Assembly (NCBI GenBank): GCA_902763805.1
Contig: CACWTN010000003.1
Span: 1 to 64,000 of the forward strand
Origin: an uncultured bacterium
GTDB lineage: Bacteria; Cyanobacteriota; Vampirovibrionia; Gastranaerophilales; Gastranaerophilaceae
Direction: 5' to 3'
Length of the DNA: 64,000 nt
Position 1 is the stretch's first letter, and every line of letters starts with the position of its first letter. Under the pieces are notes generated by a model, which was not told the origin of the DNA, made no database searches, and saw nothing but the letters and a program-made list of their open reading frames with translations. A program made the position numbers and the translations under genes. Shown here one piece after another: positions 41,807 to 53,119 of this stretch.

Positions 41807-43315
41807 ATGAATAACAATAATCAGGCTTTATATGTAAAAAAAGAAGTAATGACACGTTTAATAGAGGCGTATTTATCAGATGATTTTCCTGAAAATACAA
41901 GGCTTATTCCTTACGATATGCGCCCGACGGGAGCGGAAGTTCCGTATCGCTGCTGTATCTATAAAGAACGTGCAATTCTTAAAACCAGATTGATTGCTAA
42001 TTTGGGTTTTCCTCTTGAAAATGATGACGAAAGAATAAATCTGACAACTTATGCAAAAGAAGCCGAAGCAAGAACGGAAGTCAGCGATAAACACTTAACC
42101 GTATTACGACAGGCCTGCAAAGGTTGTACATCTAACAGTATTTACGTTACCGATATTTGTCAGGGATGTGTTGCAAGACCTTGTACAAATGCCTGCAAAT
42201 TCGGTGCAATATCCGTAAGTGACGGAAGGGCAAAAATTGACAGCGAAAAATGTAAAAAATGCCAGATGTGTATTAATGCCTGCCCTTATCACGCAATAGT
42301 TAAATTATCCGTTCCGTGTGAAGATGCGTGTCCCGTAGGTGCAATTAAAAAAGACGAAAGGGGTTTGGCATCTATTGATTTCTCAAAATGTATAAGCTGC
42401 GGAAAATGTATTTCGGCCTGCCCGTTTGGTGCAGTTCACGAAAAAAGCGAAATAATTGATATTTTAAAAGCAATGAAAAACGGCAAAAAAGTTGTCGCAA
42501 TGATAGCTCCTGCTGTTGCCGGACAATTCAGAGGCAATCTTTATCAGTTAAAAACCGCTATTAAAAAAGCAGGATTTTATGATGTTTATGAAGTTGCAAA
42601 AGGTGCGGATAAGACTGCAAGAAATGAAGCAAGAGAATTCGTGGAAAGAATGGGTGAAGGTGATGCAATGTGGGATGCAATTCACCCGATTGCAGAATCA
42701 GGCGAAACCCCAAAAGAAGGGTTTATGACAACTTCCTGCTGTGCGGGTTATATCCAGCTTGTAAATAAACATCTGCAGGAGATTAAACCTTATGTATCGG
42801 ATACTCATACTCCGCTTTATTACACTTCGGAATATGTAAAATCAATACTTCCCGACTCTGTCACTGTATTTATCGGACCGTGTGTTGCAAAAAGAGTTGA
42901 GGGCTTTGAGAACCCTAATATTGATTTTGTAATGAGCTTCGAAGAACTTGGCGCACTGTTTATGGCTAAGAAGATAGAAGTATCGGAATGTGAAGAAACA
43001 GAGTTTAATGAAGAAAGCTCAAAACAGGCTCGTAATTTTGGTGTGACAGGCGGTGTTGCAGAGGCTGTTAAAAAGGCTTTGCAGTATGAAAATTCTGTTA
43101 AACCTCTTGTTATAAGTGGCTTGAACAAAGAATCCATCCGCCAGCTTAAAAAATATGCGGCAAACGGCTGCTGTGAAGACGGGTGTAACCTGATTGAGGT
43201 TATGTGCTGTGAAGGCGGTTGTGTTGCGGGTAATGCGACCATAAATAATGTTAAAATGGCAAACAAACAGATAAAAGAAGTAATCTCAGACAGTCACGAT
43301 ATAGAAAAAATATAG
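41807..43315 (+). CDS. hydA: Monomeric [FeFe] hydrogenase, group B type
   Basis: A 502-residue iron-only hydrogenase. The N-terminal part has ferredoxin-like clusters CKKCQMCINACP and CISCGKCISACP plus an extra CQGCVARPCTNAC. The H-cluster motifs are divergent from group A: L1 is TTSCCAGY (not TSCCPGW), L2 is IGPCVAKRVE and L3 is EVMCCEGGCVAGNA. This set fits group B (TIGR04105-like) enzymes of anaerobic gut bacteria, whose in vivo direction is less well known than group A. Gene order ferredoxin-hydA, with maturases convergent downstream, supports H2 production coupled to PFOR. Start at ATG 41807 behind GAGGGAAG. Confidence 0.9.
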   Translation: MNNNNQALYVKKEVMTRLIEAYLSDDFPENTRLIPYDMRPTGAEVPYRCCIYKERAILKTRLIANLGFPLENDDERINLTTYAKEAEARTEVSDKHLTVLRQACKGCTSNSIYVTDICQGCVARPCTNACKFGAISVSDGRAKIDSEKCKKCQMCINACPYHAIVKLSVPCEDACPVGAIKKDERGLASIDFSKCISCGKCISACPFGAVHEKSEIIDILKAMKNGKKVVAMIAPAVAGQFRGNLYQLKTAIKKAGFYDVYEVAKGADKTARNEAREFVERMGEGDAMWDAIHPIAESGETPKEGFMTTSCCAGYIQLVNKHLQEIKPYVSDTHTPLYYTSEYVKSILPDSVTVFIGPCVAKRVEGFENPNIDFVMSFEELGALFMAKKIEVSECEETEFNEESSKQARNFGVTGGVAEAVKKALQYENSVKPLVISGLNKESIRQLKKYAANGCCEDGCNLIEVMCCEGGCVAGNATINNVKMANKQIKEVISDSHDIEKI

Positions 43316-43325
43316 TGGTAAAATA

Positions 43326-44318
43326 TTATTTTTGGCTGCCGGTTCTGAACCCTTTTTCTTTGCTTATTGTTCTGCCAATTGATTTAATTTTCGCTTCGAT
43401 ACACCCTCTGCACTTTTCGGGTGCGTCGTTTATGCAGATTTTACCGGGGTAAATCTCATACTTTGCTCTGTATTCTGTTGAAGTTACGTTTGGCATAACA
43501 ACATTTGCACCGCTTTGGAGTGCGATTAATCTTCCGTTCGGATTAAGAGTTTCCATTGCTGTTGTTGCCGGAATATTTATATCGGGCAGGTTTAACCTTG
43601 TAAGCGCCATAACTTTAAGAGCAAGCCAAAAATCTCCTTTTTGCGCATCTTTAAGCGGAGTTTGTGCGTGCGGAATAAACGGACCAATTCCTATCATATC
43701 CGCATTGAGTTCTTTGAAAAATAAAATATCATCAGCCAAAGATTCAACAGTTTGGTTCGGAAGCCCGACAAGACAGCCTGAACCCGTTTCAAATCCTAAA
43801 CTTTTTAAATCATATAAACATCTTTGTCTGTTTTCAAAACTTGCGTTTGGGTGCATTTTTTCATAGAGATTTTGGTCGGTTGTTTCTATCCTTAACAGGT
43901 ATCTGTCTGCACCTGCGTCTTTAAAGGCTTTGTATTCATCGTAAGTTTTTTCTCCGATACTCAGAGTCAGGGCAACATCAAATTTTTTTATCTCACGAAT
44001 AATTTCAACCATTTTATCCGTATCGTAATAATCGTCTTCGCCCGATTGCAGAACAAGAGTTTTGTATCCCAAATTTACCGCATTTTTTGCATATAAAAGA
44101 AGCTCGTCTTTTAAGATTCTGTATCTTTCAACATCTTTATTAGGAGAACGCAGTCCGCAGTATTTGCACTGACGCTTGCAGATATTTGAAAATTCGATTA
44201 ATCCTCTTAAGTGAACTTCATCTCCGACGTTTTCATGACGAACTCTGTCAGCTTCTTTAAATAGCCAATCGTTTTTTGTGATATCTGATAATATATCAAT
44301 TAGCTCCTGCTTATTCAT
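43326..44318 (-). CDS. hydE: [FeFe] hydrogenase maturase HydE (radical SAM)
   Basis: A 330-residue radical SAM enzyme needed to build the H-cluster dithiolate-bridged subsite. The SAM cluster motif is CKRQCKYCGLR, in the family's CX3CX2C form. A second, C-terminal cluster site is visible as CINDAPEKCRGC (CX7CX2C), found in Thermotoga HydE but absent from many others. LVGLPNQTVESLADD and GIGPFIPHAQTPL are typical. The ATG overlaps the stop of hydF by 8 bases, so HydF and HydE are coupled. Confidence 0.95.
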   Translation of the reverse strand: MNKQELIDILSDITKNDWLFKEADRVRHENVGDEVHLRGLIEFSNICKRQCKYCGLRSPNKDVERYRILKDELLLYAKNAVNLGYKTLVLQSGEDDYYDTDKMVEIIREIKKFDVALTLSIGEKTYDEYKAFKDAGADRYLLRIETTDQNLYEKMHPNASFENRQRCLYDLKSLGFETGSGCLVGLPNQTVESLADDILFFKELNADMIGIGPFIPHAQTPLKDAQKGDFWLALKVMALTRLNLPDINIPATTAMETLNPNGRLIALQSGANVVMPNVTSTEYRAKYEIYPGKICINDAPEKCRGCIEAKIKSIGRTISKEKGFRTGSQK

Positions 44319-45489
44319 GGAAAATCTCCATTGCTCTGTCTAAAATTCCGTTCATATAAGCGATAGCCATTCCGTAGTTTACTATCGGAATATTTTGTTC
44401 TTTTGCTTTTTTTATTCTGGACTTCATTTCATGTTCATTTAGCATGCAGCCGCCGCAGTGAATTATTAGCCTGTATTTTGATAAATCAGACGGGAATTCT
44501 CCGCCCTGAGTGAACTCAAAATCTATATTTTTGCCTGAAAAATCCTTAATCCACTTTGGGAATTTAACCGTTCCGATGTCGTTACATTGTCTGTGGTGAG
44601 TACAGCCTTCAGATATAAGAATTTTATCTCCGTCTTTGAGGTTTGATAAGGTTTCTGCACCGTTAATAAGCTCATTTAATTTACCCTTATATTTTGCCAT
44701 TAATATTGAAAATGATGTCAAAATTGTATTATCAGGTACAATTTCTTTTACCTTGTTAAAAGCCTGAGAATCCGTAATAACATATTTTGGAGTTACTGTA
44801 TTTAATAAATTGCCGAGTCCTTCGACCTGGGTGCATATCGCTGTTGCGTGAGCATCAAGACATTCCCTTAAAACATTCTGTTGAGGAAGGATTATTCTTC
44901 CTTTTGGGGCAGATTCGTCTATCGGAATTACAAGAACTACAATATCTCCCTGTTTCAGTCTGTCACGTATAATGTATTTTTCTTTCTTATTCTCGTTAAT
45001 CAGATGTCCGAGTTTTTCTTTTAGTTCATTAACGCCATCACCTGTTTTTGCTGAAACAAAATATCCCTCTCCTCGGGGGAGGGTTTTGGAGGGGGCTAAA
45101 TCTGACTTATTGAATACAACAATATAAGGAATTTTTCTGTTTTCAAATTCATTAATCAGGTTAAAATCTTCGTCCTGAAAACCGAAAGAAGAATCAATAA
45201 CAAGAACGGCAATATCGGTTTTATCAAGTATTCGGTTTGTTCTTTCGATACGCAACGTTCCTAAATTCCCTTCATCATTAATTCCTGCCGTATCAATAAT
45301 TACGACGGGCCCCAGCGGCAGAATCTCCATTGATTTTTCTACAGGGTCGGTCGTTGTACCTTTAACGTCGGATACAACTGCTAAATTTTGGTTTGTTACC
45401 GCATTAACCAAACTTGATTTTCCGCTGTTTGTGCAGCCGAAAAATGATATATGCGGGCGTTCTGATTTGTTAAGTGTATATAATGTCAT
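44311..45489 (-). CDS. hydF: [FeFe] hydrogenase maturation GTPase HydF
   Basis: A 392-residue scaffold that carries the 2Fe precursor to apo-hydrogenase. The GTPase domain has GCTNSGKSSLVNA (G1), VVIIDTAG (G3), NKSD (G4) and SAKTGDG (G5). The C-terminal cluster ligands are CTHHRQC and HCGGCMLN. Between G4 and G5 a GC-rich palindromic insert encodes PSKTLPRGEGY (45065-45097); the frame is maintained. Start at ATG 45489 with a poor SD (AAAGAAAG). It is coupled to hydE but separated from hydG by a + strand PilZ gene. Confidence 0.95.
   Translation of the reverse strand: MTLYTLNKSERPHISFFGCTNSGKSSLVNAVTNQNLAVVSDVKGTTTDPVEKSMEILPLGPVVIIDTAGINDEGNLGTLRIERTNRILDKTDIAVLVIDSSFGFQDEDFNLINEFENRKIPYIVVFNKSDLAPSKTLPRGEGYFVSAKTGDGVNELKEKLGHLINENKKEKYIIRDRLKQGDIVVLVIPIDESAPKGRIILPQQNVLRECLDAHATAICTQVEGLGNLLNTVTPKYVITDSQAFNKVKEIVPDNTILTSFSILMAKYKGKLNELINGAETLSNLKDGDKILISEGCTHHRQCNDIGTVKFPKWIKDFSGKNIDFEFTQGGEFPSDLSKYRLIIHCGGCMLNEHEMKSRIKKAKEQNIPIVNYGMAIAYMNGILDRAMEIFHE
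45065..45097. repeat. GC-rich palindromic insert inside hydF
   Basis: CCCTCTCC-TCG-GGGGAGGG hairpin (one G-U) followed by a TTTTGGAGGGGGCT tail, far richer in G and C than its surroundings. It looks like one short interspersed palindromic element maintained in frame. Other copies were not found in this window. Confidence 0.5.
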
Positions 45490-45630: not shown

Positions 45631-46251
45631 ATGCAGTTAAGTTTTAATTTGGAAAATATAAAGTATTTAAAATTAAAGTATAAAGAAGGCGGCAGAGTTA
45701 AAAATATTCAGCTGGCATTAAAAGAAAAACAGGAGAATAATTTTATTGCAGTTATCGATGCCGATAAAGTTTCTTATACAGAAACTCCGCAGCAGATTGC
45801 GATTGATTTTATTACAACAGATGGTTTGTACAGTACGGAAACAACTTTAAAAGAAGTTAAAAAAGATGACGAATACGCTTATTTTGTGATAGGGAACCCC
45901 ACTTCTCTGGACTACCAGCAGAACAGAGAATACTATCGTGTAATCTCTAAAAATGACTGTATTTATACTGTTGATAAAGGCGGCAGTGTAGAATCATATG
46001 ACACGGTTACATATGATATTTCAGCCGGCGGTGTTTCTATTATTATGGAAGAAATTGCCATTTCTCAGGAAGAAACATCTATTGTTATTTTCACTCCCGG
46101 CAGAGATATTAAATCTCATTTGAATTTTGTAAGATGTGAGATTTTTGACAAAGACAAATATAAATTATCTTTTGAATTTACTGATTTGTCGGATGTTGAT
46201 TACGAAATCCTGCATAAACTCTGCTTGGAACAGCAGCTCCATGATTTGTAG
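45631..46251 (+). CDS. PilZ-domain protein (likely c-di-GMP receptor)
   Basis: A 206-residue protein with a YcgR-N-like beta domain (residues 1-95) followed by a PilZ domain. The c-di-GMP contacts are visible: QNREYYRV carries the RxxxR arginines and TYDISAGGVSI the DxSxxG motif. Binding of cyclic di-GMP is therefore likely. Its position, on the + strand between hydF and hydG, looks accidental for hydrogen metabolism but c-di-GMP often governs type IV pilus or surface-adhesin use, and a large prepilin cluster lies 25 kb upstream. SD GAAAGGG and a TATAAT at about 45585 are seen. Confidence 0.82.
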   Translation: MQLSFNLENIKYLKLKYKEGGRVKNIQLALKEKQENNFIAVIDADKVSYTETPQQIAIDFITTDGLYSTETTLKEVKKDDEYAYFVIGNPTSLDYQQNREYYRVISKNDCIYTVDKGGSVESYDTVTYDISAGGVSIIMEEIAISQEETSIVIFTPGRDIKSHLNFVRCEIFDKDKYKLSFEFTDLSDVDYEILHKLCLEQQLHDL

Positions 46252-46253
46252 TC

Positions 46254-47693
46254 TTAAAATCTGAAATCCCTTTTGCCTTGTTCAATCTCTCTGAGATTAC
46301 TTGTCAGAACTTTTTTGACAGCTTCGTTTTTGATTTTGTCAAGTTCTTTAATGATGAATTCTTCTCCGATTTTCTTTGTTTCGGGAGAAGCATAATCCAT
46401 TAAGAACTCTTTCAGTGTTATCAATGCATTCGGCTGACAGCAATTCTGAATTTGCCCTGTTTTGCAAAGTGACATAAATCTGTCGCCGGTTCTTCCTTCT
46501 CTGTAACAGGCAGTACAGAATGACGGGATTTTGCCCAGTTGAAGCAGCCATCTGACGACTTCGTCTAAAGTTCTCTGGTCAGAAACGTCAAACTGTTCCG
46601 TTTCCGTCGGTCTTTCTTTTTCCGTGTAGCCGCCTACAGATGTTCTGGAAGCACCAGAAACCTGTGAAACACCCAGTTTAAGCAGTTTCTCTCTTACCTG
46701 TTGGGATTCTCTTGTTGAAATAATTATACCTGTGTATGGAACCGCAATACGGGTTAGGGCTACAATTTTTGCAAAAGTTTCATCATCAATACCGTTATCA
46801 AAAGCTGACGGGTCAATATCGTCCGCTTTTTTAATACGCGGAACAGATATTGTATGCGGGCCGACGCCATGAACTGCTTCTAAGTGTTCTGCGTGCATAA
46901 GAAGTGCCGCAAATTCGTATTTGTATCTTTCAAGTCCGAATAAAACGCCTAAACCTACATCGTCAATACCGCCTTCCATTGCTCTGTCCATGGCTTCGGT
47001 ATGGTACGCATAATTGTGTTTTGGTCCTGTCGGGTGTAGTCTTTCATAAGATTCTTTGTGGTATGTTTCCTGAAAAAGGATATAAGTTCCTATTCCTGCA
47101 TCTTTTAATTTACGGTAATTTTCAACTGTTGTTGCGGCTATATTGACGTTAACACGTCTAATTGCACCGTTTTTGTGTTTAATTGAATAAATAGTTTTTA
47201 TACATTCCAAAATGTATTCAATAGGATTATTTACGGGATCTTCACCGGATTCTATTGCAAGACGCTTGTGTCCCATATCCTGCAAAGCGATAACTTCAGC
47301 TTTAACTTCTTCCTGAGTAAGTTTTTTACGCGGAATATGTTTATTCTGGTGATGATACGGGCAGTAAATACAGCCGTTCGTGCAGTAGTTTGAAAGATAA
47401 AGAGGTGCAAAAATAACTATTCTTTCACCGTAAAAAGCTTCTTTTATTTCTTCTGCTAAATCATAAATTTTCTTTAAAACACCTTTGTCTTCACAAGCCA
47501 AAAGAACGCTTGCTTCTTCGTGCGTTAAACCTTGACAGTGAGTTTCTCTGCCGTTTCTAACAGGTCTTGCTTTATCTAAAATTTTATCAATAAGTTCCAA
47601 ATTATTTTTGTTTTTTTCAGCGTAGTCAAGAGTTCTCAAAACTTCCTCGTGGTTAATAAACTCTTCTGCTTTTAATGATTTTTTATCGTACAT
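46254..47693 (-). CDS. hydG: [FeFe] hydrogenase maturase HydG (radical SAM tyrosine lyase)
   Basis: A 479-residue radical SAM enzyme that splits tyrosine into p-cresol plus CO and cyanide ligands for the H-cluster. The SAM motif is CTNGCIYCPYHHQN (CX3CX2C). The auxiliary cluster is CTACYREGRTGDRF plus a Cys about 22 residues on (IQNCC). IAIESGEDPVN and LFQETYHKESYERLHPTGPKHNY are typical of HydG. It is placed directly after the TM1266-type regulator with a 22-base gap, both minus strand. Together with hydE and hydF it makes the set of maturases complete. Confidence 0.96.
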   Translation of the reverse strand: MYDKKSLKAEEFINHEEVLRTLDYAEKNKNNLELIDKILDKARPVRNGRETHCQGLTHEEASVLLACEDKGVLKKIYDLAEEIKEAFYGERIVIFAPLYLSNYCTNGCIYCPYHHQNKHIPRKKLTQEEVKAEVIALQDMGHKRLAIESGEDPVNNPIEYILECIKTIYSIKHKNGAIRRVNVNIAATTVENYRKLKDAGIGTYILFQETYHKESYERLHPTGPKHNYAYHTEAMDRAMEGGIDDVGLGVLFGLERYKYEFAALLMHAEHLEAVHGVGPHTISVPRIKKADDIDPSAFDNGIDDETFAKIVALTRIAVPYTGIIISTRESQQVREKLLKLGVSQVSGASRTSVGGYTEKERPTETEQFDVSDQRTLDEVVRWLLQLGKIPSFCTACYREGRTGDRFMSLCKTGQIQNCCQPNALITLKEFLMDYASPETKKIGEEFIIKELDKIKNEAVKKVLTSNLREIEQGKRDFRF

Positions 47694-47715: not shown

Positions 47716-47961
47716 CTATACGTTTGAATAAACTGTTTTTGCGTTAACACCTTCAAGGCTTCCGATTTTTCCTGTCAGAGCATTAATAACATCAACAGGT
47801 GCATCAAGAACAACGCTTATTATTCTTACTGCTTTCGGCTGATAAGGAATTCCCATTCTGCCTATAATGTATTTTGAATGTTCTGTTAAAAGATTTTGAA
47901 TGTCGCATACTACTGCATCATTTTCAACGATAATTCCGATAATCGCAACTCTGGTTTCCAT
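47716..47961 (-). CDS. TM1266-family iron-only hydrogenase system regulator
   Basis: An 81-residue ferredoxin-like-fold protein, recognised by METRVAIIGIIVEN, LLTEHSKYIIGRMGIPY and VVLDAPVDVINALTGKIGSLEGV, found beside hydrogenase maturation genes in many anaerobes. Similar to NikR C-terminal domains, it is thought to be regulatory, but its ligand is unknown. The frame is open to 47994 (TTG), but ATG 47961 follows an ideal AAAGGAGAG. A strong hairpin (47980-48013) with a CTCCTTT loop lies just upstream and could mask this SD. It leads the operon with hydG. Confidence 0.9.
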   Translation of the reverse strand: METRVAIIGIIVENDAVVCDIQNLLTEHSKYIIGRMGIPYQPKAVRIISVVLDAPVDVINALTGKIGSLEGVNAKTVYSNV

Positions 47962-47979
47962 AATACTCTCCTTTGTATA

Positions 47980-48013
47980 AAAAAGTCGTGCCAAAAAGGA
48001 GGCACGACTTTTT
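47980..48013 (-). terminator. Strong hairpin: terminator of the upstream gene, or attenuator of the hydrogenase-regulator operon
   Basis: AAAAGTCGTGCC / GGCACGACTTTT stem and a TCCTTTTT loop, followed on the minus strand by T6. It lies 18 bases before the SD-bearing start of the TM1266-family gene. The loop CCTCCTTT (48002-47995) is perfectly complementary to AAAGGAGG at 48030-48023, and its CTCCTTT part to the SD AAAGGAG at 47974-47968. Confidence 0.75.
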
Positions 48014-48055
48014 AATTTGTTACCTCCTTTCTCTAAAGGTTTAAATATTTAGCGT

Positions 48056-48907
48056 TTAATTTTTAAATATTTTCTCCTTGAGAGTCAGGTATGTATCTAT
48101 TATGTTATAAACCTTCTTTTTTTTCAATTGTTTTGATTTTGTAATTTTGGGTAATGTGATTTTTTCATAATTTTCTATTATAAGTTCGGGAAAGAAGGTT
48201 TTGAAAACTTCTTTGGAAGTCTTGCTTAAATTCCGGTCGCATGACTGTTTGATACTAAAATTAACTGCCTGACAAGATTCTCTTCTTCTGCTTCTGAATT
48301 CTTTAATATTTTTTGAATCTGTTCCTATCATGTACAACAGAAAATCCCTATCAGGAATCTCATGAAAAATTTTTACAAAATCATTTTTTAATTTTGTAAA
48401 ATAATTATCGGCAAAATCGGTGATACCCAGCCAAGGATCTATAATAACCGCCTCTTTGTTCCTGAAAGAATACATCTTATCTTTGTTTATCTTTTTCTGC
48501 GTAATAAAAGCTACCGTATGGTCAATTTTTATGTCTTTGTCAAAATTTTCCTTTTTCATATAAATCTCTCCGACATAAATATTTTTTTGACCGTTAATTT
48601 TTCCTATAAGCTGGGCAAGCATAGCTTCTTCAAAGCAGTTTCCGACTTTTTTATCCTGCATAAAGTAAACCAGTTGGGAAAAATATTCATTAGAGCTTCT
48701 GAGGTTTTTTCTCATTTTATATAATTTTACGCCAATTTTTTCAAAATAATCAGGAAGTGTTTTTAAAGAAAATTCAGAAATGTGGTGCGCGTTTATATAT
48801 CTTTTTTTTAGTTTGCTTAAAGAAATATGCGGATATGCACTATGGGCTTTACGCTCAATTGTGTCTGCTGTTTTGATGATATTTTGTCTGCCCTGAAAAG
48901 TTATCAT
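48056..48907 (-). CDS. Cys-His-Asp (transglutaminase/papain-like) protein, paralogue 1
   Basis: A 283-residue protein. The likely catalytic triad is Cys in KVGNCFEEAMLAQ, His in KIDHTVAFI and Asp in AVIIDPWLGITDF, with 39- and 27-residue spacing. The same triad with the same flanks is found in the 53176-53841 gene. The C-terminal half is Lys-rich with helices (LPKITKSKQLKKKKVYNIIDTYL). No signal peptide is present, and the N-terminus ITFQGRQNIIKTADTI is similar to its paralogue. ATG 48907 is preferred to TTG 48913; no SD. Possible roles are transglutaminase-like, deamidase or protease; family membership is inferred from residue pattern only. Confidence 0.7.
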   Translation of the reverse strand: MITFQGRQNIIKTADTIERKAHSAYPHISLSKLKKRYINAHHISEFSLKTLPDYFEKIGVKLYKMRKNLRSSNEYFSQLVYFMQDKKVGNCFEEAMLAQLIGKINGQKNIYVGEIYMKKENFDKDIKIDHTVAFITQKKINKDKMYSFRNKEAVIIDPWLGITDFADNYFTKLKNDFVKIFHEIPDRDFLLYMIGTDSKNIKEFRSRRRESCQAVNFSIKQSCDRNLSKTSKEVFKTFFPELIIENYEKITLPKITKSKQLKKKKVYNIIDTYLTLKEKIFKN

Positions 48908-48925
48908 ATTCAATTAAAAAATCAT

Positions 48926-49582: not shown

Positions 49583-52500
49583 ATGTCAAAAAACACAATT
49601 ACAGTTGATGGTAACTACGCTGCAGCGCATATTGCGTATGCTTTAAGCGAAGTTTCCGCAATCTACCCTATCACACCTTCTTCTACAATGGGAGAATGGA
49701 TTGATGAATGGGCTTCTCAACACAAGAAAAACATTTGGGGCAAACAGGTAAGTGTTGCTGAAATGCAATCTGAAGCAGGTGCAGCAGGTGCTGTTCACGG
49801 TTCTCTTGCAGCAGGTGCTTTAACTTCTACTTACACAGCTTCACAAGGTTTATTATTAATGATTCCTGTTATGCACAAAGTCGCAGGTGAAATGCTTCCG
49901 CATGTTATTCACGTTGCTGCCCGTGCACTTGCAGCTCAATCACTCGCAATTTTCGGTGACCATACAGACGTTATGGGCTGCCGTAACACTGGTTATGCTA
50001 TGTTAGCAGCTAACAGTGTTCAGGAAGAAATGGATATGGCACTTATTGCTCACTTATCAACTTATAAAGCAAAAGTTCCGTTCCTTCAATTCTTTGACGG
50101 ATTCAGAACTTCTCACGAAGTACACAAAATTGAAGAAATATCTTATGAAGAAATCGCTTCATTGGTAGAACCTCAATACATTGAAGAATTCAAAAACAGA
50201 GCTTTAAGACCTGAAGCTCCTGTTTGCAAAGTCGGTGCTCAAAACACAGACGTTTACTTCCAGGGACGTGAAACTGTTAACAAATACTATGACGCAGTTC
50301 CTGATATCGTTCAGGAATATATGGACAAAGTTGCTAAGGTTACAGGTCGTCAATATCATCCGTTTGATTATGTTGGTGCTCCTGATGCAACTGATGTAAT
50401 CGTAGCAATCGGTTCAAGCTGCGAAACTATCGAAGAAACAATCGAATACTTAAATGCTAATAAAGGCACTAAGTACGGTTTAGTTAAAGTTAGATTATAC
50501 AGACCGTTTGATGTTAAGAGATTTAACGAAGCACTTCCTGCATCAGTTAAGAGAGTTGCTGTTCTTGACAGAACAAAAGAACCCGGTTCAATTGGCGAAC
50601 CTCTTTACTTAGATGTTGTTGCAGCACTTGCAGGCAAAGATATCAGAGTAATCGGCGGCCGTTACGGTTTATCTTCTAAAGAATTTACACCATCTATGGT
50701 TTACGCTATTTACAAACATTCTGAAAAGAACGGTTTCCACGGATTTACAGTTGGTATTGAAGATGATGTAACTCACAAATCATTACCGATTGAAGAACAT
50801 ATCGTTACTGAACCTGAAGGAACTACAAACTGTATGTTCTGGGGCTTGGGTTCAGACGGTACCGTTGGTGCTAACAAAAACTCAATCAAAATTATCGGTC
50901 AATATACAAACAAAGATGCTCAGGCATACTTTGCTTATGACTCTAAGAAATCATTTGGTGTAACTGTTTCTCACTTAAGATTCGGTGATAAACAAATTAA
51001 GTCAACATACTTAATTACAGCACCTGATTTTGTTTCTTGCTCAGCTCACGCTTATATCGGAAGGTATGACCTTCTTAAAGGTATCAAAGAAGGCGGTACA
51101 TTCCTTCTTAACTCACCTTGGTCAAAAGAAGAAGCATTCTCTCACTTAACAAGAGATATGCAGGAAACAATCATCAACAAGAAAATCAAATTCTACAATG
51201 TTGATGCTGAAAAATTAATTAAGGAACAACCCGGATTAAGAGGTAAAGGTGCTAACACCGTTATGATGGTAGCTTACTTCAAAGTTTCAGGTATCATTCC
51301 GTTTGAACAGGCTTATGAAGGTATGAGAGCTATGACAACCAAGACCTTCAAGAAGAAAGGTGACGATGTTGTTAACATGAACTTAGCTCTTATCGATGCA
51401 GCTATCAACGCAACAGAAGAAGTTGTAATTCCTGCTTCTTTAGACGGCGTAGCTCACGCAGATGACGTTAAGCTTATCGCAGATGACGCTTCTGAATTCG
51501 CTAAGAAAATCATTGAACCTTCAATGAGACAAAAAGGTGATGACATCCCTGTTTCAGCAATGAGCAACGATGGTGTTATCCCGACAGGTACAGCATGCCT
51601 TGAAAAACGTGGTATCGCACCTCGTGTTCCTAACTGGAACAGCGAAACTTGTATTCAGTGCGGTATCTGTGCTTCTGCTTGTCCTCACGCAGCAATCAGA
51701 ACTAAATTGATTGAAGCTGATGATTTGAAGAATGCTCCTACATCATTCAAGACAGTTGATGCTAAGCCGAATGACCACGGTGAAAAATTCAGAATTCAGG
51801 TTTACTGTGATGACTGTACAGGCTGCGGTGTTTGTTTAGACCAATGTCCGATGTCAAAAGTTCCCGGTAAAGAAGTTCTTACCTGGTCAACTATTGAAGC
51901 TGAAAAAGCTAAAGGCGAAGGCGAAAACGAAAAATTCTTTGACGCATTACCTGATAACGTAATGGGTAAAAATACTACTAAGACAATTAAGGGTGCAATG
52001 CTCAGAAAACCGTTATTCGAATTCTCAGGTGCTTGCGCAGGCTGCGGTGAAACACCTTATGTTAAACTTGTTTCACAATTGTTCGGTGAAAATGCTATTG
52101 TTGCAAACGCAACAGGTTGTTCTTCAATTTACTCAGGTACTTTCCCGACAATTCCTTATACAACTAATAAGGATGGCAGAGGTCCTGCTTGGGCTAACTC
52201 ATTATTCGAAGATAACGCTGAGTTCGGTTTCGGTATGAGATTGGCAGTTGATTCTAACAGAGCACTTTTAAGACAAAAAGTTGAAGAAGTTCTTGCTAAA
52301 GAAGAAGCTCCGGCTGATTTGAAAGAAGCTTTCAATGCTTGTATCGCAAATTGGGATAACTCAAAAACAGAAGAAGCTGTTAAAGCTCAGGAAGCAGCTA
52401 AAGTTCTTATTGACAAGTATGCAAAAGAATGCGGTTGCGACACTATCAAGAAGATTAAAGAACTTGAAGACTACTTTACTGATAAATCTATCTGGATAAT

Positions 52501-53119
52501 AGGTGGTGACGGTTGGGCAAACGATATCGGTTACGGCGGTATTGACCATGTTCTTGCTCAGAACAAGAATGTTAATATCCTCGTTCTTGATACAGAAGTT
52601 TACTCAAATACCGGCGGTCAGGCTTCCAAATCAACACCTACAGCTGCTGTTGCGAAGTTTGCTACAGGCGGTAAACCAACCTATAAGAAAAACATGGGCT
52701 TAATGAGTATGTCATACGGTTACGTTTATGTTGCATCAGTAGCATTGGGTGCAGACAGAGCTCAAACTCTTAAAGCATTCCAGGAAGCTGAAGCATACAA
52801 CGGACCTTCTATCATATTTGCTTATGCTCCTTGTATTGCTCACGGTATTGATATGTCTAAGACTCAGACAGAACAAAAACGTGCTGTTGAAGCCGGTTAC
52901 TTCCCGCTTTACAGATATAATCCTGAAGCAGAAGTACCGTTCACTTGGGATGCTAAAGATCCTAAGGGTGCTTACCAAGACTTTATCAGATCAGAGGGCA
53001 GATACAAATCATTGCTTAAGACTAACCCTGATGCTGCAGAAGCTCTTTACAGCAAGGCTGAAAAAGATGCTGCTCAGAGAATGGAAGTTTATAAAGCAGT
53101 TGGTGCATTGCTTAAGTAG
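49583..53119 (+). CDS. nifJ: Pyruvate:ferredoxin oxidoreductase, single chain
   Basis: An 1178-residue enzyme oxidising pyruvate to acetyl-CoA and CO2 with reduction of ferredoxin. Domain order is as in the homodimeric form: pyrimidine-binding domain I (YPITPSSTMGEW), domain II transketolase C-like (IGSSCETIEETIEYL), gamma domain (FGVTVSHLRFG), ferredoxin domain with CIQCGICASACP and CDDCTGCGVCLDQCP, and the TPP-binding domain with CAGCGETPYVKL, the proximal-cluster Cys, GGDGWANDIGYGG and SNTGGQASKSTPTAAVAKFA. Codon usage is extremely biased, implying very high expression. It pairs with the ferredoxin and hydrogenase 8 kb upstream. Length is complete. Confidence 0.98.
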   Translation: MSKNTITVDGNYAAAHIAYALSEVSAIYPITPSSTMGEWIDEWASQHKKNIWGKQVSVAEMQSEAGAAGAVHGSLAAGALTSTYTASQGLLLMIPVMHKVAGEMLPHVIHVAARALAAQSLAIFGDHTDVMGCRNTGYAMLAANSVQEEMDMALIAHLSTYKAKVPFLQFFDGFRTSHEVHKIEEISYEEIASLVEPQYIEEFKNRALRPEAPVCKVGAQNTDVYFQGRETVNKYYDAVPDIVQEYMDKVAKVTGRQYHPFDYVGAPDATDVIVAIGSSCETIEETIEYLNANKGTKYGLVKVRLYRPFDVKRFNEALPASVKRVAVLDRTKEPGSIGEPLYLDVVAALAGKDIRVIGGRYGLSSKEFTPSMVYAIYKHSEKNGFHGFTVGIEDDVTHKSLPIEEHIVTEPEGTTNCMFWGLGSDGTVGANKNSIKIIGQYTNKDAQAYFAYDSKKSFGVTVSHLRFGDKQIKSTYLITAPDFVSCSAHAYIGRYDLLKGIKEGGTFLLNSPWSKEEAFSHLTRDMQETIINKKIKFYNVDAEKLIKEQPGLRGKGANTVMMVAYFKVSGIIPFEQAYEGMRAMTTKTFKKKGDDVVNMNLALIDAAINATEEVVIPASLDGVAHADDVKLIADDASEFAKKIIEPSMRQKGDDIPVSAMSNDGVIPTGTACLEKRGIAPRVPNWNSETCIQCGICASACPHAAIRTKLIEADDLKNAPTSFKTVDAKPNDHGEKFRIQVYCDDCTGCGVCLDQCPMSKVPGKEVLTWSTIEAEKAKGEGENEKFFDALPDNVMGKNTTKTIKGAMLRKPLFEFSGACAGCGETPYVKLVSQLFGENAIVANATGCSSIYSGTFPTIPYTTNKDGRGPAWANSLFEDNAEFGFGMRLAVDSNRALLRQKVEEVLAKEEAPADLKEAFNACIANWDNSKTEEAVKAQEAAKVLIDKYAKECGCDTIKKIKELEDYFTDKSIWIIGGDGWANDIGYGGIDHVLAQNKNVNILVLDTEVYSNTGGQASKSTPTAAVAKFATGGKPTYKKNMGLMSMSYGYVYVASVALGADRAQTLKAFQEAEAYNGPSIIFAYAPCIAHGIDMSKTQTEQKRAVEAGYFPLYRYNPEAEVPFTWDAKDPKGAYQDFIRSEGRYKSLLKTNPDAAEALYSKAEKDAAQRMEVYKAVGALLK

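Follow-up and report, generated by a model that had tools for sequence, protein, structure and literature searches.

The minus strand of the window (the whole 64 kb stretch of DNA that was analyzed) contains a leader element, located at 48089-47978, that is likely to control [FeFe]-hydrogenase maturation genes by transcription attenuation. The hairpin and the purine segments that were described in the initial annotation make up the 3' half of this element. By sequence comparison, the element occurs in bacteria of two phyla, and nearly all of its sites precede genes for the assembly of the [FeFe]-hydrogenase active site. It is probably an attenuator leader with a conserved predicted binding hairpin, acting as an OFF switch. 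The RNA, its gene set, and its link to the TM1266-type regulator appear to be new; protein- or ligand-dependent attenuation itself is of a known kind.

Layout of the leader in the window

The element lies between a promoter and an operon that encodes a TM1266-family regulator and the maturase HydG (Table 1). The promoter sequence ends 9 bases ahead of the window core, and a promoter with at least 9 of 12 matches was detected in 22 of 27 related leaders, compared with 5.6% of shuffles, with the -10 element ending 9-11 nt before the core. The positions initially reported for CCTTT (48039-48035), AGAG, AAAGGAGG, the hairpin, the Shine-Dalgarno sequence (SD), and the ATG were all correct. The hairpin has 13 pairs, but its loop is TCCTTTTT, and the CC of the reported loop CCTCCTTT forms the top two bases of the stem.

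Table 1. Coordinates of the leader element, its promoter, and the operon behind it in the window.
Feature	Position	Strand	Basis or remark
Sigma-70-like promoter TTGAAA-17-CATAAT	48099..48127	-	immediately 5' of the leader; 10/12 matches
Core 5' strand CCTGACTCTCAAGG	48076..48089	-	alignment A1, pair counts, 88 cores
Core 5' strand, outer part	P0 CCT 48089-48087; internal loop 1 GA 48086-48085	-	
Core 5' strand, inner part	P1 CTCT 48084-48081; internal loop 2 CA 48080-48079; P2 AGG 48078-48076	-	
Variable apical region, local AT-rich hairpin	48040..48075	-	36 nt in the window; 3-59 nt in retained related cores
Core 3' strand, inner part	P2 CCT 48039-48037; TT 48036-48035	-	alignment A1, pair counts, 88 cores
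Core 3' strand, outer part	P1 AGAG 48034-48031; AA 48030-48029; P0 AGG 48028-48026	-	same alignments as inner part
Antiterminator strand AAAGGAGG	48023..48030	-	overlaps P0 3' strand; partner CCTCCTTT 48002-47995
Intrinsic terminator	47980..48013	-	13-bp stem, 8-base loop TCCTTTTT 48000-47993, then U-run
SD AAAGGAG of the regulator gene	47968..47974	-	
Regulator start codon ATG	47961-47959	-	
TM1266-family [FeFe]-hydrogenase system putative regulator, 81 aa	47716..47961	-	NCBIfam TIGR03959, 99.7 bits (cut-off 60.8)
hydG, H-cluster maturase (radical SAM), second in the operon	46254..47693	-	NCBIfam TIGR03955, 908.8 bits

The window leader was more stable in folding than its shuffles (z -3.58), and its lowest-energy fold (-37.0 kcal/mol) combined P1, P2, and the terminator with a P0 whose register was shifted (UACCU/AGGUA). 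A strict descriptor of the core had exactly one match on the two strands of the 64 kb window; six shuffles gave 0, 0, 1, 1, 0, and 0. No core was seen ahead of hydF; therefore, the leader is present only at the TM1266-hydG operon in the window genome. An upstream ORF on the minus strand (48056-48913), for which no NCBIfam match was found, extends its 3' end across the promoter and 34 bases into the leader. At three other loci (L003, L012, and L016), a neighboring ORF stops 17-30 bases ahead of the core.

Core structure and the probable terminator/antiterminator switch

Orthologues of the TM1266 regulator were present in 17 of 57 related genomes, and their upstream regions were compared. These regions contained CCUGA-NNNN-(C/U)(G/A)AG... 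near the promoter and ...CU(UU)-NNNN-AAAG farther on, and the two NNNN blocks paired and covaried (CUCU/AGAG, AUCU/AGAU, CCGU/GCGG, and GUCC/GGAU). In the window, the conserved partner of AGAG is CTCT, 47 bases upstream, and CCTGACTCTCAAGG (48089-48076) is complementary to CCTTTAGAGAAAGG; AGAG is thus one strand of a covarying helix and more than a tetraloop. The pairing of CCTTT with AAAGG that had been assigned to this segment is a possible alternative, but it was missing in part of the relatives; the conserved pairing is AGAG/CTCT. CCTTT/AAAGG was rejected as a conserved hairpin: 88.5% of the cells were paired, but two of its five pairs departed only by broken cells, and the hairpin was absent from the minimal leaders L005, L006, and L011.

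The core, of about 35-70 nt, forms a rod in the order P0 (CCU/AGG), a GA/AA internal loop, the 4-bp P1, a second 2x2 loop, and P2. Covariation across related genomes, which the initial annotation had named as a check, was found in alignment A1, comprising 16 related leaders that were chosen irrespective of pairing. All four P1 pairs changed on both sides in these leaders, the covariation score was matched by none of 500 shuffles, and the terminator stem varied on both sides at 6 of 12 counted pairs. One leader (L013:220-321) was excluded from A1 because it had no terminator; it contained a full core (P1 ACGG/CCGU) and may be decayed or use a different platform. P1 and P2 also covaried in 20 chosen Clostridia leaders, and 7 of 9 core pairs varied on both sides in 42 Clostridia cores. 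In a larger set, a core was found in 100 of 104 leaders; 90 of these were kept (score of at least 11.5), corresponding to 88 distinct cores, and a terminator was detected by script behind 82 of the 90. The pairs of P1 and P2 were exactly the top 7 of 435 column pairs in the 88 cores, a test that, unlike that on A1, is biased for P1 because only cores with at least three P1 pairs were retained.

Internal loop 1 was GA/AA, GA/GA, or AA/AA in 86 of the 88 cores, and its bases were nearly invariant (A5, A39, and A40 in 88/88; C2 and G41 in 87/88). Loop 2 was of the GA type in most Clostridia and mostly CG/UU among the relatives of the window. The two strands of the Clostridia core resembled each other (CUGA-N4-RAA and UGA-N4-RAAG), and this partly two-fold symmetric quasi-dyad would suit a dimeric protein. 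A leader subtype with CCUGACAUGAGG... or CCUGACACUGAGGG...UCCCGAGGGG-RAAGG and an incompletely paired P1, perhaps a variant core, was observed at L105, L134, L167, L348, L349, and L351.

As in an attenuator, an intrinsic terminator is located between the promoter and the first gene in the window, and a conserved alternative pairing that excludes it was found both in the related leaders and in Clostridia. The AAAG... strand paired with the 5' arm and loop of its own terminator more strongly than with the terminators of other leaders, with energies of -9.46 (own) versus -6.65 kcal/mol (permuted) in 25 related leaders and -8.26 versus -6.06 kcal/mol in 57 Clostridia leaders (p about 0.0002 in both). 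The initial proposal of attenuation is consistent with these pairings, the covarying core, and the promoter of the leader itself. The complementarity of the terminator to the first AAAGGAG segment, also part of that proposal, proved to be conserved and to re-evolve between subtypes: AAAGGAGG pairs with CCUCCUUU in some species, and AAAGAUACGG pairs with UCGUGUCUUU in others. Because the same AAAG serves as the 3' strand of P0, formation of P0 and formation of the antiterminator are mutually exclusive. The nascent window RNA, transcribed up to the loop, adopted the antiterminator fold (-23.7), whereas the full-length RNA reached -37.0 with the terminator and -28.1 with the antiterminator enforced. 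Because the full-length RNA defaults to the terminator, the ON state would have to arise kinetically or with assistance. A leader peptide was rejected as the basis of attenuation, given that no ATG or well-spaced start follows AAAGGAGG in the window, as had been noted initially, and that many relatives have AAAGATAC... in place of AAAGGAGG.

A second platform, in which the SD of hydG lies directly 3' of the core, was found at L226, L227, L230, L231, L234, L243, and L245. The initial suggestion of an SD-sequestering switch was not supported at the window, but this SD-linked platform exists at hydG in other genomes. For both the terminator and the SD platform, the simplest interpretation would be an OFF state while P0 is held.

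Distribution of the element and its link to TM1266

Model R1, built on A1, was used to search the 57 relatives, 65 genomes of the genus, and 286 genomes of the order, of which 16 encoded a TM1266 regulator above the curated cut-off. All R1 matches confirmed by eye were ahead of a TM1266-type regulator. Weak matches in the relatives (L034-L047) and in the genus and order (L058-L061) were rejected as ordinary terminators with no core and no hyd genes behind them. A leader in another genus (L068) was visible by eye and was missed by R1, and no leader was seen at L076, where hydG is not adjacent to the regulator. A public record labeled 'uncultured Acinetobacter sp.' (L091) contains a contig that equals that of G016, from the window's genus, in length and in leader, and its regulator is 94% identical; this label looks wrong.

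R1 failed to reach the Clostridia leaders. An alignment of TM1266 led to 80 named loci, mostly of Clostridia, and a strict core rule applied to the upstream 330 bases identified a core in 20 of these, compared with a shuffle mean of 0.92; many loci had no nearby core. Model R2, trained on Clostridia leaders only, recovered the leader of the window (E 0.0027) and those of its relatives (E as low as 1e-8); of 40 genomes with TM1266 loci, 11 gave no R2 match. Model R3, which consists of the core alone with no terminator, matched the exact site in L053 (5e-9), L005 (6e-7), and L054 and L057 (about 1e-4), and in 10 of 28 sources at E<0.1, versus a best value of 0.013 in 42 control loci. R3 missed the window leader itself, in which the apical insert is long.

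A search of 245 Clostridia genomes with R2 (E<=0.001) marked 19 genomes, the centre genome among them. The sites in the other 18 genomes, which were new, all preceded hydE, hydF, hydG, or a TM1266-type regulator, as read by eye from translations. The genes that followed were TM1266 then hydG (L202, L206, L209, L211, and L213), TM1266 then hydE (L201, L203, L208, L212, L214, and L216), TM1266 alone or with an iron-type ABC permease (L210 and L218), hydF then hydE (L204), hydE then hydG (L205 and L215), and hydG alone (L207 and L217). At L218, the leader-bearing TM1266 gene was followed, by eye, by a FecCD-like permease and an ABC ATPase, with no maturase. G340 had a weaker second R2 match ahead of hydE. 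Cores were found ahead of TM1266 and also between TM1266 and hydE or hydG; in three genomes, TM1266 ended about 28 bases before the leader, which places the element inside the operon, and L243, L234, L343, and L344 had two cores within one operon.

Among 160 Clostridia hydG genomes, R2 marked 17 of the 127 that encode TM1266 and none of the 33 in which it is missing (p 0.024). R2 matches in these 33 genomes (L283-L291 were inspected) were rejected as chance terminators. In a closer test, the 2.5 kb ahead of hydG was searched with R2 at E<=0.05 in 19 of the 33 TM1266-less genomes, which had a full-length, high-scoring hydG, and in 20 of the 127 TM1266-bearing genomes, the next in rank after 30 hydG loci that were already used. 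R2 marked 18/20 with TM1266 versus 1/19 without (p 6e-8), a count that leans toward TM1266 loci because R2 was trained on TM1266-linked leaders; four of the 18 (L335, L336, L339, and L340) were unclear by eye. Together with R3, which added G553, the counts were 18/20 versus 2/19 (p 5e-7), and R3 alone (E<=0.02) gave 12/20 versus 2/19 (p 0.002). Two hydG genomes, G373 and G553, contained good cores (R3 E 2e-7 and 2.5e-8, respectively), and no TM1266 gene was detected in either at E<=5; both are drafts that may lack the gene. The link between the core and TM1266 thus appears strong but not absolute, and co-occurrence alone does not establish RNA binding, although it favors TM1266, a NikR-like ACT protein, as the putative RNA-binding partner.

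The regulator of the window was predicted to adopt the fold of the NikR C-terminal (ACT-like) domain (pLDDT 95.7). The predicted model matched TM1266 of Thermotoga maritima (PDB 2nzc) with Z 15.5 and belongs to the same family (E 1.5e-8), and it matched the NikR C-terminal domain with Z 12-13.6 over 76-80 residues. The ribbon-helix-helix DNA-binding part of NikR is absent from the TM1266 protein, and its 81 residues leave no room for a DNA-binding domain. PDB 2nzc was deposited as an uncharacterized protein, and the portions of the literature that were searched contained no link of TM1266 to RNA.

Proposed mechanism and alternative explanations

By sequence comparison, RNA that begins just upstream of CCUGAC folds into the conserved rod (P0, the GA/RA loop, P1, the second 2x2 loop, and P2), and the 3' strand of P0 (AAAG and the next bases) also pairs with the 5' arm and loop of the terminator. 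An effector that holds P0 and loop 1 together would make AAAG unavailable. The terminator would then form, or the SD would be closed to the ribosome, and the maturases would no longer be made. With no effector, the AAAG strand would open the terminator, and the operon would be read. The nearly invariant bases C2, U3, and A5 and the A, A, A, and G of the 3' strand would be those that such a switch needs. The same core stands in Clostridia ahead of TM1266, hydE, hydF, or hydG, either with a terminator or directly against the SD.

In the attenuators of pyr operons, the small regulator PyrR is encoded by the first gene, and the hairpin to which it binds takes the antiterminator strand and frees the terminator. 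PyrR sites are located ahead of the first gene and between genes, and SD-type versions exist elsewhere. The element described here shares with these attenuators a regulator in the first gene, the logic of hairpin, antiterminator, and terminator, repeated sites in the operon, and SD versions, with RNA binding by TM1266 being putative. It differs in its hairpin, which has two 2x2 loops around 4 bp, in contrast to the PyrR binding loop, and in that its genes are H-cluster maturases. The likeliest effector would be the TM1266-type protein, a sensor of the ACT/NikR type that lacks a DNA-binding domain, working as an RNA-binding autoregulator as PyrR does, an assignment for which the chances seem roughly even. 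The cores of G373 and G553 speak against a strict need for TM1266.

Next after TM1266, and tentatively, the core may be a direct riboswitch that binds a small molecule or ion of H-cluster assembly with no protein involved; iron, S-adenosylmethionine, cysteine, or an iron-carbonyl-cyanide intermediate could serve as examples of its ligand. This explanation is consistent with the conservation of both internal loops of the rod, with the near invariance of bases at loop 1, with the two expression platforms (terminator and SD), and with the cores in the two genomes with no detectable TM1266. Like riboswitches in general, the element has a conserved structured core upstream of functionally related genes, mutually exclusive antiterminator and terminator, and one core with two platforms; unlike them, it has only a putative ligand and matches no family in Rfam 15. 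However, the strong TM1266 linkage among hydG genomes argues against direct ligand binding, and a small core that is partly two-fold symmetric in Clostridia suits a dimeric protein. In a narrower and rather doubtful version of the riboswitch reading, the core would itself sense a compound found only in H-cluster assembly, such as the iron-carbonyl-cyanide intermediate or its precursor, and would shut off HydE, HydF, and HydG when assembly backs up; a riboswitch class of this sort would serve an organometallic cofactor pathway. The cores in G373 and G553 could also be explained by an RNA-binding protein other than TM1266 that reads the hairpin, but no other co-occurring candidate emerged as far as tested, and this explanation is improbable.

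Two further explanations concern the terminator itself. Its loop CCTCCTTT can pair with the true SD (47974-47968) in the window, as the initial annotation pointed out, which would allow the hairpin to sequester the SD. This pairing is not conserved: among 25 related terminators, just 7 are capable of it, and among 57 Clostridia terminators, just 5. CCUCC is already forced by the pairing with AAAGGAGG, and SD sequestering by the loop is very unlikely. The simple alternative offered at the same time, that of a terminator of the upstream gene combined with chance complementarity, would fit a hairpin that is a good intrinsic terminator and a same-strand ORF that ends inside the leader. However, the leader has its own promoter at a kept spacing, and in several related loci, the upstream ORF of greatest length runs divergently on the opposite strand; this reading is therefore not workable. 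The conservation of the core and antiterminator in two phyla and their linkage to hyd genes also speak against it, and it deserves almost no credence. Attenuation by the leader itself remains the preferred reading.

No Rfam 15 family exceeded its threshold at the window leader, where the best overlapping family was RF01769 (22.5 bits; threshold, 60), and the cores of 13 Clostridia loci had no Rfam 15 match up to E 0.5. A T-box leader was rejected, as no T-box family matched at the window leader or at these 13 loci. The portions of the literature that were searched contained no report of such an element, and hydrogenase, hydA, hydE, hydF, and hydG were unmentioned in the main texts of PMC8632094, PMC11109978, and PMC6429828. 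The element offers a concrete site for testing the control of H-cluster maturases and the role of the widely conserved TM1266. Binding of the core by TM1266 would make this protein a NikR/ACT-like sensor that recognizes RNA; without such binding, the core would be a candidate riboswitch for a hydrogenase-specific signal. Either outcome would aid the heterologous production of active [FeFe] hydrogenases.

Other hydrogenase genes were located close to the operon in the window, namely, a Group B [FeFe] hydrogenase, hydE, and hydF (41807-43315 on the plus strand and 43326-45489 on the minus strand). A small ORF between hydF and hydG (45631-46251, plus strand) had weak matches to YcgR/CelA models and is presumably PilZ-like. 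A large ORF that adjoins the hydrogenase genes (49583-53119, plus strand) reads by eye like a pyruvate:ferredoxin oxidoreductase.
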